A stretch of DNA of 64,000 nucleotides from Glycomyces albidus (GTDB taxonomy: Bacteria; Actinomycetota; Actinomycetes; Mycobacteriales; Micromonosporaceae), in the NCBI RefSeq assembly GCF_009451885.1, contig NZ_WIAO01000013.1, forward strand, positions 1 through 64,000, given 5' to 3'. Below are positions 1,351 through 9,821 of the stretch, piece by piece. Position numbers and translations under genes: made by a program. The notes under the pieces are model-generated. The model was given only the letters and a program-made list of their open reading frames with translations. It had not been told where the DNA came from and did no database searches. Numbering within the stretch: the stretch's first letter is position 1; each line of letters starts with the position of its first letter.

Positions 1351-1509
1351 CGGTGCTGTGCGTGAGCAGCGGGCTGCTGTGAGTCCGTCTCGCCCTGGGT
1401 TCGGGGAGAAAATCTGCTTCGCCCCGTATCCGCCGTCGGGCCGGTCTCGTTCTTCTAGATGCGAGCGGCGAGACCGCTCGCGCTCAGGTTGAGGACGACG
1501 GGGGAGACG

Positions 1510-2520
1510 ATGGGACGCATCGCCGGGGGCAGCGGGGAATCCCGCCGTCTCAGCGTGCTCCGGTTCCTCCTCGGCGCCGCGCTGACAGCATTCGGCTCCC
1601 TGCTCTTGGGGGCCTTCGCCATGGCCGATTCCGCTTGGGCATCAGACGATTCCGCAGCATCGCAGGGCCTTGCCGCGATGACCGACCCCCTCTCCGCAGA
1701 GGTGTCCGACATGTCGCGCCTGGCCGCGCGACTGGTCCCGCAGAACCAGCAGGGACATCGGACGCCGGCGGGACAGGGGGAGGTCACGGGGCTGGTGTCG
1801 GGCCTGTCCGAGCCGATGGGATCGCTGGTGGACGAGACGGATGAAGCCGTGGGCACGGTGCTGCCGACCGGCTCCGGACCCGGCTTGATCGACCTGGACG
1901 ACACGTCCGTCGGAGACGGCACCGCCGAAGTAGTGGCACCGCTGGTGGGAACCCTCGTGCAGGGAACGGCGTCCATTGTGGACCGCCCGGCCCCGGTGGT
2001 GTCCGGTGTCTATGAGACTGTCGCGCCCCCGACCGACCCGGTCGGCGACCTGGCGCGACTGGTGACCGATGGCCTGCGTCTCGGCGACGCGACGACGCCC
2101 GGGAGCGTCCTCGCCGCTGCCGCAGGACAGCCGAGCTTCACCGCACTTGCGGCGAACGCCGACTCCAGCGAGGTGGTGGCGGCGCTCCGAGGAGCGCACA
2201 CTGGCCGGCCGGCCGCCGCCTTCGAGTGCTCCGCTGAAGAACAGCGGGGGACGGACCGGTCCGGGATCGACGAGGTGCGCGGCGTGCCGCACACCGCGGC
2301 CGAGCCGTGGGGGTACCACGGCCCCGCCCTTCCCGACCTGAAGATCATCCCCGGTGGAGCCACTGGCTCGACCGCCGGTATCAGCGTCGACAGCGGTTGC
2401 AACGCTGTCTGCGTCTCCCCGTGCGCCGCGGGGGAAGAGGTGTCACTCTCCCGCACGGTGATCGGGGACTTGGGGCGGCCGTTGGACCGCGCCGCCGAGC
2501 TGTCCGTCGCCCCAGACTAG
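1510..2520 (+). CDS. Secreted protein of unknown function, Ser/Val/Gly-rich
   Basis: I do not recognise the family. The 336-residue product has a Sec-type signal peptide: basic RR at residues 13–14, a hydrophobic stretch at about 17–41 (FLLGAALTAFGSLLLGAFAM) and a probable cut after SAWA near residue 46. The mature part is low in complexity and rich in Gly, Val, Ser, Thr and Pro. It has no membrane anchor. Near the C-terminus lies a small Cys cluster, SGCNAVCVSPCAAG. I chose the ATG at 1510, after GGGGAG, over one 51 bp upstream because it puts the basic n-region close to the hydrophobic core. It lies 200 bp upstream of the chaplin-like genes and on the same strand, so it may be another cell-surface component, but nothing in the sequence shows this directly. 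Confidence 0.65.
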   Translation: MGRIAGGSGESRRLSVLRFLLGAALTAFGSLLLGAFAMADSAWASDDSAASQGLAAMTDPLSAEVSDMSRLAARLVPQNQQGHRTPAGQGEVTGLVSGLSEPMGSLVDETDEAVGTVLPTGSGPGLIDLDDTSVGDGTAEVVAPLVGTLVQGTASIVDRPAPVVSGVYETVAPPTDPVGDLARLVTDGLRLGDATTPGSVLAAAAGQPSFTALAANADSSEVVAALRGAHTGRPAAAFECSAEEQRGTDRSGIDEVRGVPHTAAEPWGYHGPALPDLKIIPGGATGSTAGISVDSGCNAVCVSPCAAGEEVSLSRTVIGDLGRPLDRAAELSVAPD

Positions 2521-2719
2521 CGCCACCGCGCGTCGGCGCGCGGGGAGCGAAGTCCGCCTTCGCATCTCCCTCCGGTTCAGTGCTCGGGATTCAGACCCCC
2601 GGTGCCCTCCGGCGCGCCGACGCGCGGCCAGGCCTTCGCCGCCGCCTCCCTGAGAGGCCCGGCAATCCGATGAGCCGCCCGCACGATCGGGCGCACAATC
2701 CAGAAGGAAACCGCATCTC

Positions 2720-3088
2720 ATGCGCAAGGTTCTCACCGTCGCGGCTGTCGCCGCCGGCGCCGCCGCCCTGTCGGCAGCGCCCGCGACGGCCGCCGGCAAC
2801 AACTCCGGCATCACCGCCGGGGAGGTCAGCCTGGTCAACGTCGACGCGTCCAGCCTGGCCCACTGGCAGATCTGCGGCCAGAACATCCTGACCCAGTCCA
2901 TCGGCCAGGTCTGCGACAACCGCGACCACATCGGTCCCGGCCCGCAGTCCGGCGTGTGGGCCGGTGACGCCGCGCTCGGCAACATCGACCTCTCGGACGC
3001 GCTGCACTGGCAGATCTGCGGCCAGAACATCGCCGTCGCGCCGTCGCTGCACCAGCAGTGCCTCAACTACGACCACCTGAACGAGTAG
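2720..3088 (+). CDS. Small secreted chaplin-like repeat protein 1
   Basis: 122 residues. The signal peptide (MRKVLTVAAVAAGAAALSAA) probably cuts after PATA near residue 25. The mature part is two copies of a unit of about 46 residues: [N/Q]SG(V/I)xAG...(L/I)xNxDxSxxxHWQICGQN....[I/L].Q.C.N.DH. Each unit has two Cys, spaced C-X12-C and C-X13-C. The order Gly-Val-x-x-Gly, a polar/aliphatic stretch, then CG.N...(F)G..C.N resembles the Streptomyces chaplin domain (GVLSGN...VNVCGN...FGN.C.N), whose Cys are 17 apart. AAGGAAA precedes the ATG. It is the first of four related genes on one strand. The chaplin link is my inference from pattern; a surface-active or aggregating coat protein would fit. 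Confidence 0.8.
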   Translation: MRKVLTVAAVAAGAAALSAAPATAAGNNSGITAGEVSLVNVDASSLAHWQICGQNILTQSIGQVCDNRDHIGPGPQSGVWAGDAALGNIDLSDALHWQICGQNIAVAPSLHQQCLNYDHLNE

Positions 3089-3166
3089 ACCTCCCTGGCC
3101 GGGCCGTCCGCCGAGGACGGCTCGTCAAGCGGGACAACAGGAAACCAAGAAACGGGGAAAGAAACA

Positions 3167-3544
3167 ATGCGCAAGGCTCTCATCGTCACCGCCGCCGCCG
3201 CCGGGGCGATCGCCGCCGTCGGCTCCGCCGGCTCCGCCATGGCCCAGAACTCGGGCGTGTGGGCCGCGGACGCCGCGCTGATCAACGCCGACGCCTCCAG
3301 CCTGGCCCACTGGCAGATCTGCGGCCAGAACGTGCTCGCCACGTCGTTCGGCCAGGTCTGCGACAACCGCGACCACATCGGCTCGGGCCCGCAGTCCGGC
3401 GTGTGGGCGGCCGGTCCGGCGCTCGCCAACCTGGACGCCTCCAGTGCGCTGCACTGGCAGATCTGCGGCCAGAACATCGCCGTGTCGCCGTCGCTCGAGC
3501 AGGTCTGCAAGAACTACGACCACGTCACCCACGCGGCGGAGTAA
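3167..3544 (+). CDS. Small secreted chaplin-like repeat protein 2
   Basis: 125 residues with a signal peptide (MRKALIVTAAAAGAIAAVGS) and a probable AMA|QNSG cut near residue 27. The mature part holds two repeats that are closer to each other than in protein 1: QNSGVWAADAALINADAS then HWQICGQN and FGQVCDNRDHIGSG, followed by QSGVWAAGPALANLDAS then HWQICGQN and LEQVCKNYDHV. Cys spacing is 12 in the first repeat and 13 in the second. The four Cys could form two intra-repeat disulphides. It starts 78 bp after protein 1, with GGGAAAG ahead of the ATG, so one transcript is likely. There is no sorting signal or C-terminal membrane anchor, so release or assembly on the surface is expected. Confidence 0.8.
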   Translation: MRKALIVTAAAAGAIAAVGSAGSAMAQNSGVWAADAALINADASSLAHWQICGQNVLATSFGQVCDNRDHIGSGPQSGVWAAGPALANLDASSALHWQICGQNIAVSPSLEQVCKNYDHVTHAAE

Positions 3545-3638
3545 ACCGGCCGCAGGGGCGAGCCCCGGGCAGCGCCGAGCCAAGGCTCGCGGCTGTCAAG
3601 CGGAGGCCCGTCCCGCCCGCAACGAAAGGAACCATCAG

Positions 3639-4049
3639 ATGCGCAAGGTACTTGCCGTCACCGCCGCCGCTGCCGGCGCGATCGCCGCCCTCGGCGCGGC
3701 GTCGCCCGCCATGGCCCAGAACTCGGGCGTGTGGGCCGGGAGCCCCTCGCTGATCAACGCCGACGCCTCGAGCCTGGCGCACTGGCAGATCTGCGGCCAG
3801 AACATCCTGGCCAACTCGTACGGCCAGGTCTGCGACAACCGCGACCACATCGGCTCGGGCCAGAACTCGGGCGTGTGGGCCGGGAGCCCGTCGCTGGTCA
3901 ACGCCGACGCCTCCAGTGCCCTGCACTGGCAGATCTGCGGCCAGAACGTGCTCGCCACGTCGTTCGGACAGGTCTGCGACAACCGCGACCACATCTCCGA
4001 GGACGAACGCGACCGGCACGACAAGGGCGCCGACCAAGGCGACTACTAG
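3639..4049 (+). CDS. Small secreted chaplin-like repeat protein 3
   Basis: 136 residues with a signal peptide ending in SPAMA and mature start QNSGVWAGS. Its two repeats are the most alike of the set (SGVWAGSPSL.NADASS, HWQICGQN, FGQVCDNRDHI), both with C-X12-C, which suggests recent duplication or gene conversion. After the second repeat it has a charged tail, SEDERDRHDKGADQGDY, that the two upstream paralogues lack. The ATG at 3639 follows AAAGGAA. A longer reading upstream overlaps the previous gene's end and has no signal peptide, so I rejected it. It is probably co-transcribed with its neighbours (94 bp after gene 2, 42 bp before gene 4). Confidence 0.8.
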   Translation: MRKVLAVTAAAAGAIAALGAASPAMAQNSGVWAGSPSLINADASSLAHWQICGQNILANSYGQVCDNRDHIGSGQNSGVWAGSPSLVNADASSALHWQICGQNVLATSFGQVCDNRDHISEDERDRHDKGADQGDY

Positions 4050-4091
4050 ACCGTTCATCGCCCGTACGCGGGCGAGAAGGGGTAGAGGCAC

Positions 4092-4583
4092 ATGCGCAAC
4101 ACCACCATGGCGGCGGTTTCGGCCGCCGCGGCAGCAGCCGCATTCTCGGGAGACGCCGCCCAGGCGTCCACTCCCGACTGGTTGACGCTCGCCGCCGTGG
4201 AGACCGGGCACGACTCGGTCCTACCCAGTGTCTGCGAGACCGGAACACCCGGTGCGATCACCGGCCCGGCCTGCGACACCGTTCTCGGATCGCTTTCGGC
4301 GAACGAGTGGACGGGCGCGCCCCTGCCGGAGCTCCACGAGAGCGACGGCGGCGTCAGGCTCGTCGACATCGACCTGCGGAACTTCGCCACCTGGAAGGTC
4401 TGCGGGGTCGCGGTCGGCGCCTCCACCCGAGGCGCGCACTGCGACAACTCGATACAGGACCAGGAGGAGCCGGTGAACGCCGAACGCGGGAACGCGCTGG
4501 TGAACGCCGACGCCACCGGAGCCCTCCAATGGTCCGTCTGCGGTGTCTCGGTCGGCGAGGTGATCGTCGTGCCCTACTGCTGA
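4092..4583 (+). CDS. Divergent secreted protein with three C-X12-C units; 3' end amplified downstream
   Basis: 163 residues with a short signal peptide (AAVSAAAAAAAFSGDAAQAS). The mature chain keeps the Cys spacing of the three upstream proteins in three units: VCETG...PACDT, KVCGVAVGASTRGAHCDN and SVCGVSVGEVIVVPYC, each with exactly 12 residues between Cys. The words LVDIDLRNFATWKVCG and LVNADATGALQWSVCG match the NADASS..HWQICG core of the paralogues. Otherwise it has diverged. GAAGGGG precedes the ATG. The last 40 codons or so, from a CAGGAGGAG stretch to the stop, are the template of a tandem repeat that continues for almost 700 bp, so the original 3' end and terminator have been pushed apart. 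Confidence 0.75.
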   Translation: MRNTTMAAVSAAAAAAAFSGDAAQASTPDWLTLAAVETGHDSVLPSVCETGTPGAITGPACDTVLGSLSANEWTGAPLPELHESDGGVRLVDIDLRNFATWKVCGVAVGASTRGAHCDNSIQDQEEPVNAERGNALVNADATGALQWSVCGVSVGEVIVVPYC

Positions 4584-5268
4584 ACATGACCGCTGGGGAT
4601 CAGGAGGAGCCGGTGGCCGGTGCGGGAACGCGCTGGTGAACGCCGAAGCCGCCGGAACCGACGATCCCCCCCAACTCGATCGGCGAATCCGTCGTCGATC
4701 CCCACCGAGCAGGCAAGACCGCTGCGAACCAGGAGGAGCCGGTGAACGCCGAACGCGGGAACGCGCTGGTGAACGCCGAAGCTGCCGGAACCTCCACCGG
4801 TCCGCGAGCGGTGCCCCGATCGGCGGGGCCGATGACGAGCTGTACTGCTGAACGGGATCGCTGCGAACCAGGAGGAGCCGGTGAACGCCGAACGCGGGAA
4901 CGCGCTGGTGAACGCCGAAGCTGCCGGAACCTCCACCGGTCCGCGAGCGGTGCCCCGATCGGCGGGGCCGATGACGAGCTGTACTGCTGAACGGGATCGC
5001 TGCGAACCAGGAGGAGCCGGTGAACGCCGAACGCGGGAACGCGCTGGTGAACGCCGAAGCTGCCGGAACCTCCACCGGTCCGCGAGCGGTGCCCCGATCG
5101 GCGGGGCCGATGACGAGCTGTACTGCTGAACGGGACCGCCGCGAACCAGGAGGAGCCGGTGAACGCCGAACGCGGGAACGCGCTGGTGAACGCCGAAGCT
5201 GCCGGAACCTCCACCGGTCCGCGAGCGATGCCCCGATCAGCGGGGCGAACGTCGAGCCCCACAACTGA
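4461..5268 (+). repeat. Tandem repeat: six copies of the gene 3' end, mostly 139 bp
   Basis: Copies begin with CAGGAGGAGCCGGTG at 4461 (inside the gene), 4601, 4730, 4869, 5008 and 5147; the array ends at 5268. Spacings are 140, 129, 139, 139 and 139 bp. Copies 3–5 are almost identical, copy 2 is scrambled, and copy 6 diverges after its first two-thirds. Relative to the in-gene copy, the extra copies have lost one base in the segment that encodes LQWSVCG. Because 139 is not a multiple of 3, each copy also shifts frame against the next. Each copy contains AGGAGG followed 5 nt later by GTG, and from that GTG an 82-codon frame runs through the next copy to a stop (ending LYC in most). In the gene the same bases encode QEEPV. 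I read the array as decayed duplications; translation is possible but unproven. Confidence 0.9.
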
Positions 5269-7820: not shown

Positions 7821-8522
7821 GTGGAACTCAAGCAATCCATCAAGACCGTCGGCGCATTCGGCGTCACCGCCGCCGCCGGTCTGCTCGGCTCAATCGCGCT
7901 CGCTTCGCCGGCCCAGGCAGCGGTCGCGACGATCCCGATCAACGACGGCAACGTGCCCACGACCGCCGCGGAGTTCGGCGACCAGAGCTGCGACCAGGTC
8001 CCCGACGACATCGCCGCCACCGAGGACGGCTGGGTGTTCGTGCTCCCGGCCGCCGCGGGCGCCGAGGGCAACTTCATCTCGGTCACGGCGACCTTCGAAG
8101 ACGCCGAAGGCGACGAGCACGTGCTCACCACCGATGAGGACGGCGGCATCGTCTCCGGCTCCGGCGACAACAAGGCGTACATCATCACGCCCGCCGGCTG
8201 GACGCTCGTGGACGCCGAAGCCGAGGTCAACGACCCCGACGAAGGCGCCCAGTTCAACTTGACGCACACCTGCCCCGGCGAGCCCGGCGAAGAGCCGTCG
8301 AGCCCCGGCGAGGAGCCCTCGTCCCCGTCCGAGGAGCCGACCTCGCCCGGTGACGGTTCGAGCCAGCCCGGCGAGGAGACGACCTCTCCCACCGCCGGCG
8401 GCCAGCTCCCGACCACCGGCACCCCGCTGACGATCGCGATCGTCTCGGCCGCGGCCCTGGCCGCGGGCGGTGCCGCGCTGTACCTGATCCAGCGCCGCCG
8501 CCGCGAGGCCCAGAACTGGTAA
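7821..8522 (+). CDS. LPxTG-anchored surface protein A
   Basis: 233 residues. Signal peptide to about residue 33 (ASPAQA|AVA). An ectodomain of about 120 residues follows, with two Cys (DQSCDQVP and THTCPG) and the words [28 protein letters not shown]. Then come a Pro/Ser/Glu linker ([14 protein letters not shown]) and a sortase signal: LPTTG at about 201–205, a hydrophobic helix and an RRRRE tail. A housekeeping sortase would cut T|G and attach it to the wall; no sortase gene is in the window. The start (ATG, MELKQSIK) follows GAGAG. A paralogue with the same ectodomain lies next door. The ectodomain's function is unknown to me. Confidence 0.85.
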
Positions 8523-8575: not shown

Positions 8576-8753
8576 GCGTTTCGCCGATTTCGCGGTGGAT
8601 TGGCAGGTCAGCCGTTCGGTCGGATTCCAGAACCTTCCGGTCGGACCGCAACTGCGGTGCATCCGGCGGCGTGAACACTTCGCCGGCGCCTGGCCCAGGC
8701 GCCGTCGGACACCGACAGGTCCGACACCGACCACCCATCACGGAGCCAGTCCC

Positions 8754-9821
8754 TTGAGATTCACACGCCGCCAGAAGGTCTCCGGCGCCGCGATCGCGGC
8801 CGGCCTGGCCGGAGCCGTCGCGCTCGCCTTCGCCGTCCCCGCGCTCGCGGGGAGCACCGACACCATCGCCATCAACCCGGGCAACGTGCCCACGACCGCC
8901 GAAGGGTTCGGCGACCAGAGCTGCGACCAGGTCCCGGGCGACACCGCGGACTGGCTCGACGGCTGGGTCTTCGTACTGCCCAACTCGGTCGGCGCCGACG
9001 GCAACTTCGAGTACATCGAAGCCGTCTTCCAGGACGAGGACGGCAACGTCCTCCGCTTCAACACCGACGACGACGGCGGGATCGTCTCCGGTTCCGGCGA
9101 CAACAAGGCGTACATCGTCACTCCGGCCGGGCTCACGCTCATCGACGCCGAGGCCGTGATCCCGCGCGACGACGAAGAGGACGACAAGAAGGGCGGCAAC
9201 GGGAACGGCGGCGGGAACGGCGACCGGGACTACTTCAACCTTACCCACACGTGCCCCGCGACCGAGGAGCCCCCGGGCGAGGAGACGGAGACCCCGAGCG
9301 AGGAGCCCTCTTCGGAGGAGCCGACCACCGAGGAACCGACCACCGAGGCGCCGACGTCGGAGGAGCCGACGACCGACGAGCCGTCGAGTTCGTCCGAGGA
9401 GACCACCTCCGAGGAGGAGACGACTTCCGAAGAGGAGACCACCTCTGAAGAAGAGACGACCTCCGAGGAAGAAACGACTTCCGAAGAGGAGACGACTTCT
9501 GCGGAGGAGACCACCTCCGAGGAAGAGACCACCTCTGCGGAGGAGACCACTTCCGAGGAGGAGACGACCTCTGAAGAAGAGACCACCTCTGAGGAAGCGT
9601 CCTCGCCCGCCGAGGAGTCGTCCAGCCCGACCGAGTCCGGCTCGCAGCCGACCACGACGAGCCCCGCGCCCGGCGCGGTCTCGACCTCGCCGGCCGGGTC
9701 GGCGCTGCCGATCACGGGCTCCTCGCTCACGTACTTCCTCATCGGTGGCGGCATCGTGGTGCTCGCGGGGATCGTGATCCTCATCGTGGCGCGCCGCAGG
9801 GCCGAGACCGGCGAGGAATAG
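8754..9821 (+). CDS. LPxTG-anchored surface protein B with long Glu/Thr/Ser stalk
   Basis: 355 residues from a TTG start. Signal peptide to about residue 32 (PALAG|STD). The ectodomain clearly matches protein A ([55 protein letters not shown]) but adds an acidic/Gly-Asn insert ([16 protein letters not shown]). A stalk of about 110 residues follows, made of EE-TTSEEE type repeats, then LPITG, a hydrophobic helix and ARRRAE for sortase anchoring. I chose TTG at 8754 because GGAG lies 8 nt upstream and the n-region MRFTRRQK then abuts the hydrophobic core; the in-frame ATG at 8595 would place over 50 extra residues ahead of the signal. The long acidic stalk should hold the domain clear of the wall. 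Confidence 0.85.

Follow-up and report, generated by a model that had tools for sequence, protein, structure and literature searches.

Four adjacent genes near the start of the analysed DNA, a 64,000-nucleotide stretch of the Glycomyces albidus genome (the window; positions 1 to 64,000 of contig NZ_WIAO01000013.1), encode small, paralogous and presumably secreted proteins in which a signal-like N-terminus is followed by repeated units with one Cys pair each [Table 1]. The same description had been given in an earlier, sequence-only reading of this DNA and is borne out by the open reading frames, all of which lie on one strand, as is the statement that the two Cys of a pair lie 12, rarely 13, residues apart. 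The genes are preceded by a leader of 199 bases, and a tandem array that begins within the last gene continues past its stop codon.

Table 1. Features of the repeat-protein cluster and its surroundings in the window
Feature	Positions	Strand	Description
Upstream gene	1459-2520	+	353 aa; N-terminal hydrophobic segment; conserved beside the cluster in Glycomyces
Leader inverted repeat	arms 2526-2540 and 2613-2627	+	from the 16-leader alignment (A6) and its fold
Second conserved hairpin (CGCCCG...CGGGCG)	2676-2693	+	just before the likely gene 1 ribosome-binding site
Gene 1	2720-3088	+	122 aa; signal-like N-terminus; two units; Cys spacing 12, 13; CAI 0.833
Gene 2	3167-3544	+	125 aa; signal-like N-terminus; two units; Cys spacing 12, 13; CAI 0.859
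Gene 3	3639-4049 (ATG at 3639)	+	136 aa; signal-like N-terminus; two units; Cys spacing 12, 12; CAI 0.722
Gene 4	4092-4583	+	163 aa; divergent last gene; three Cys pairs, spacing 12, 12, 12; CAI 0.506
139-bp tandem array	4459-5246	+	5.7 copies; starts in the last unit of gene 4

A unit is about 48 residues long with one conserved Cys pair, and the number of units per protein ranges from one (locus L103) to four (L023, L044); varying unit number is common in structural repeat proteins. The regularity of the pair goes beyond chance: when unit stretches were delimited by profile in the window and in related loci, without any filter on spacing, 183 of the 189 distinct ones had a single pair at 12 or 13 residues (131 at 12 and 52 at 13), the remainder consisting of one stretch at 11, one at 14, one with an extra Cys (4 + 7) and three without a pair. 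The core around the first Cys (C1) is strongly conserved, with Gly at C1+1 in 184, Trp at C1-3 in 178 and Asp at C1-10 in 183 of 186 units, shares that lean upward because the profile that found the units was built from the window's own; this set was in addition cut with a spacing filter of 11-14.

The product of gene 4, in which a STPDWLT motif follows the signal-like stretch, had been singled out as keeping a spacing of exactly 12 in all three pairs in spite of its divergence. The spacing holds, but the CG/W/NxD core is missing from the first pair, which is spaced by 12 in all 15 members of the gene-4 alignment A7, by 11 in locus L029, and is absent from the gene-4-like proteins of L025 and L027. 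The gene 3 product ends in a conserved acidic tail whose last residues are DQGDY, and DQGD plus one residue terminates one gene per cluster in 15 of the 15 clusters that reach this point (the window and L041-L054). The tandem array continues out of frame beyond the stop codon of gene 4. Five of these later copies were read, and three of them have Ser where the first Cys would stand; judging from these letters, the copies look like decayed last units of gene 4.

Codon usage sets the four genes apart from one another. Measured against 16 open frames from what we take to be the ribosomal-protein and elongation-factor region of the same genome (reference genes span 0.68-0.85, with EF-Tu at 0.85 and EF-G at 0.836, both inside the set), the CAI of genes 1 and 2 is such that only two of 61 called genes score above each, while gene 3 is ordinary (18 of 61 higher) and gene 4 low (51 of 61 higher); the comparison genes were called heuristically at 150 aa or more and may include non-genes, and values for short genes are noisy. 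Genes 1 and 2 are thus probably highly expressed. Values of dN/dS, obtained from nine comparisons between pairs chosen among many, are not low (0.41-0.77).

Family searches, distribution and gene neighbourhood

Database searches did not place the repeats in any named family. None of the four window proteins matches a Pfam or NCBIfam family at cut-off; the best E values are 0.032 in Pfam and 0.045 in NCBIfam for the 35 members of alignment A4, and 0.052 in Pfam for the 15 members of A7. Solved structures in the PDB yielded no match at E up to 10, and the best E in PHROGs was 0.13 for the three proteins scanned. The curlin repeat (PF07012) is absent from the Pfam matches listed for the window proteins, A4 and A7. 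No sorting-signal match was obtained with Pfam in the four window proteins, and attachment to the wall would therefore need another route. Structure predictions for genes 3 and 4 had such low confidence (mean pLDDT 40.7 and 32.8) that neither was relied on; the models place strands at the two canonical units of gene 4 and helices there in gene 3. Among the papers listed by literature searches, no title or opening portion of an abstract describes the family.

A profile built from the four window proteins alone detects the family in 21 of the 22 genomes of the genus, the sole exception being a 3.3-Mb assembly in 360 contigs (the window's own genome comprises 88 contigs and 5.76 Mb). In a sample of 150 genomes from the GTDB family this profile matched 21: 16 in the genus, four other genera with clear matches (best E from 1.8e-48 to 5.1e-19), and one weak match judged to be due to chance. 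A fifth other genus (G046) encodes a 68-aa protein with one unit (L103), which was weak at first detection (E 2.1e-4); its later value of 8.8e-13 is circular, its own unit, like those of the other four genera, being a row of that profile. Wider profiles, which include sequences of the other genera, were run against 354 genomes of the GTDB family and matched 28 with an E threshold of 0.01 and 26 with one of 0.001, the latter being 21 of the genus and five of 332 others. In a class-wide search of 394 genomes the window's own genome alone matched the window-protein profile. Because few candidates were scored per genome (about 11 and 19 class-wide; 12, 21 or 29 family-wide), these searches could have missed distant members.

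Three borderline genomes were set aside. The unit profile gave one further weak class-wide match (G287, E 5e-4), judged to be due to chance; another reading frame at that place looks like an ordinary membrane enzyme. G087, one of the 21 of 150 with an E of 4.7e-4, subsequently scored 0.007, and G061 scored 0.003; both are absent at E up to 0.001. The best reading of the sequences is that the four genes make up a conserved cluster and belong to a single family, apparently undescribed, which has so far been found in Glycomyces and a few relatives.

The surroundings of the cluster are conserved as well. In Glycomyces, glnA comes first and is followed by the 353-aa upstream gene, two or three genes with canonical units, the divergent gene and a glycoside-hydrolase-like gene. 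Among 16 named loci encoding a relative, all of them from Glycomyces and two from one strain, tblastn matches were obtained for the upstream gene in 15, for glnA in 14 (with identities to relatives of up to 94%) and for the hydrolase in 14, the misses falling at cut locus ends except in L055, where there is room for glnA, yet no match; none of the three matched in the four loci of other genera. No Pfam or NCBIfam family scored above cut-off for the upstream protein. In a different genus (L085, 1514-4608) two tandem gene pairs lie upstream of the unit genes, and one gene of each pair appears sigma-factor-like by eye. Further downstream in the window, two adjacent genes (7821-8522 and 8595-9821) encode secreted proteins with sorting-signal-like ends, the former passing the cut-off of the Pfam anchor family (21.7 bits against 20) and the latter, which has a long Thr/Ser/Glu repeat stalk, falling just short of it (19.1).

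The inverted repeat and the hairpin of the leader are largely kept in the 16 leaders aligned, and the stretch between the arms of the repeat varies among species. Out of 26 predicted pairs, 13 are invariant and four are changed on both sides, with a slightly unfavourable covariation term (+0.41). Rfam gave no match to the leader with E up to 1. Hexamers of developmental sigma factors occur upstream of gene 1 in none of the 16 leaders; the looser GGAAC is present alone in nine.

A possible component of the hyphal or spore surface

Most of what is known about aerial growth in actinomycetes comes from the chaplins, rodlins and SapB of Streptomyces, and the sequence-only reading had assumed that the present genus is without classical chaplins. 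This assumption fails: the chaplin domain (PF03777) is found in 16 of 16 sampled genomes of the genus, that of the window included, and in 95 of 150 genomes of the GTDB family, those 16 among them. In the window's own genome four PF03777 matches above cut-off lie together in a single 335-aa open frame (L001 724-1728, contig C7), with no other match at E up to 0.001; this genome also has one match above cut-off to RamS, the SapB precursor. Of the 150 sampled genomes, the 21 that carry the repeat family (16 of the genus and five others) all have PF03777 matches, a co-occurrence that is confounded by kinship.

The interpretation we tentatively prefer, with a confidence falling just short of even, is that the family represents lineage-specific secreted Cys-paired repeat proteins with a structural role in the surface or matrix of hyphae or spores. 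Each unit would be closed by its own disulfide after secretion, so that a protein would be a string of small stapled modules. The proteins may accumulate outside the cell as a structural part of that surface or matrix, acting beside the separate chaplin and SapB-type systems of the genus. Suggestive of such a role are the near-constant Cys pair, the presence of the family in almost every genome of the genus, the CAI of genes 1 and 2, the variable number of units, the range of dN/dS and the invariable company of PF03777 matches. Against it stand the CAI of genes 3 and 4, a dN/dS that is not low, the lack of a sorting-signal match and the near-neutral to hydrophilic character of the mature proteins (GRAVY of -0.15, -0.05, -0.59 and 0.08 for genes 1 to 4, with cleavage placed by eye). 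An unannotated secreted family, in a genus that has chaplins and with a RamS-type peptide in the window's own genome, offers a specific candidate for a surface component of another kind.

In place and abundance the family would resemble chaplins or rodlins. RdlA and RdlB, described as having 131 and 133 aa, are likewise paralogous small secreted proteins of the surface of aerial hyphae, but the word cysteine is absent from the paper that describes them (PMC5314377). CwpA and CwpB of Actinoplanes missouriensis are actinomycete surface proteins that have been compared with long chaplins and reported to lack chaplin domains; they are described as sortase-dependent and hydrophobic (PMC13251363), whereas the four window proteins match no sorting signal.

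A more far-reaching version, possible though in our opinion doubtful, is that aerial-surface proteins stapled by Cys pairs come in a second class, to which the units belong; this class would have arisen independently or very long ago and would run parallel to the chaplins in Glycomyces and its relatives. Were this the case, the hyphal coat would be built from three systems, a chaplin, a SapB-type lanthipeptide and the repeat family.

A possible soluble function or relation to chaplins

Alternatively, the secreted repeat proteins might act in solution, for example as protease inhibitors, antimicrobial peptides or signalling peptides, each unit carrying one disulfide loop. Their small size, secretion, paralogy and Cys pairs would fit, as would an inter-Cys loop whose second half is more variable than the core, but there is no Pfam, NCBIfam or PDB match, no immunity, transporter or processing gene was recognised beside the cluster when the list of open reading frames was read by eye, and the family is carried by 21 of 22 genomes of the genus. 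Near-universal presence in a genus is unusual for antimicrobial genes, and we regard a soluble role as unlikely.

The proposal that the units are a shortened tandem variant of chaplins deserves closer comparison. Like chaplins, the proteins are secreted, have several units each, occur in the same genomes and carry a Cys pair in which CG is followed by an aliphatic residue within three positions; the CG[Q/V]-N-V of the units resembles the CG[N/V]-x-V of local chaplins, and units of gene 4 with CGVAV or CGVSV are like some of them. The earlier contrast between a Cys spacing of 17 in Streptomyces chaplins and 12 in the units does not hold for the local chaplins compared: of 32 chaplin copies from the GTDB family (31 of them distinct; a non-random set made up of best-scoring matches that have loci), 23 have a spacing of 13, one of 14, three of 15 and five of 16. 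Local chaplins being mostly C-x13-C, the contrast in spacing is smaller than had been stated. Such observations could suggest that the units are highly diverged true chaplin domains, descended from the C-x13-C chaplin domain of the GTDB family and forming amyloid surface fibrils.

Profile comparison gives no clear signal for this descent. The homology sought by comparing HMMs is not clear of its controls, hhalign giving the units against local chaplin domains a probability of 4% and a score of 14.6, with 8.95 for the reversed control and two of 100 column shuffles scoring above the real alignment. A gapless permutation anchored on the first Cys, added after hhalign had failed, is weakly in favour (p 0.005 with the following Gly, 0.049 without). 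Even with the threshold relaxed to E 10, PF03777 matches none of the four window proteins, and with a threshold of E 1 it matches none of the members of A4 (35) and A7 (15); the W and NxD core of the units is absent from the 32 chaplin copies compared. Chaplins have been defined by three GN motifs 12-13 residues apart (PMC13251363), and chaplin-like genes are mentioned for Stackebrandtia (PMC4255298). GN motifs, counted here per core and not by spacing, number 0.16 per unit vs 1.75 per chaplin core.

The residue make-up of the units is clearly unlike that of chaplins, and their mean GRAVY is -0.06 (186 units, -0.53 to 0.87) vs +0.59 in the 32 chaplin cores (0.29 to 0.84), with overlapping ranges. 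On an aggregation scale, the share of hot spots is 0.24 in the units, 0.26 in shuffled units and 0.29 in chaplins; being no higher than in shuffles, it does not favour a simple amyloid reading, and amyloid assembly is unsupported by the sequences. Membership was accepted neither by profile nor by GN motifs or hydrophobicity, and filing the family under chaplins appears unwarranted, though a distant common origin is conceivable. Of the shortened-variant proposal there remain small, secreted, paralogous proteins, one Cys pair in each unit, the CG resemblance and the probable high expression of genes 1 and 2; diverged chaplin descent strikes us as quite improbable.

Metal binding by an HxxxC...CxxxxH arrangement around each Cys pair is very improbable and was rejected: His stands at C1-4 in 140 and at C2+5 in 123 of 186 units (25 of which end before that place), but it is not kept throughout, both places being mostly occupied by other residues in gene-4 proteins, and in L028 and L029 the second His is lost and the first partly kept while the Cys pair stays.
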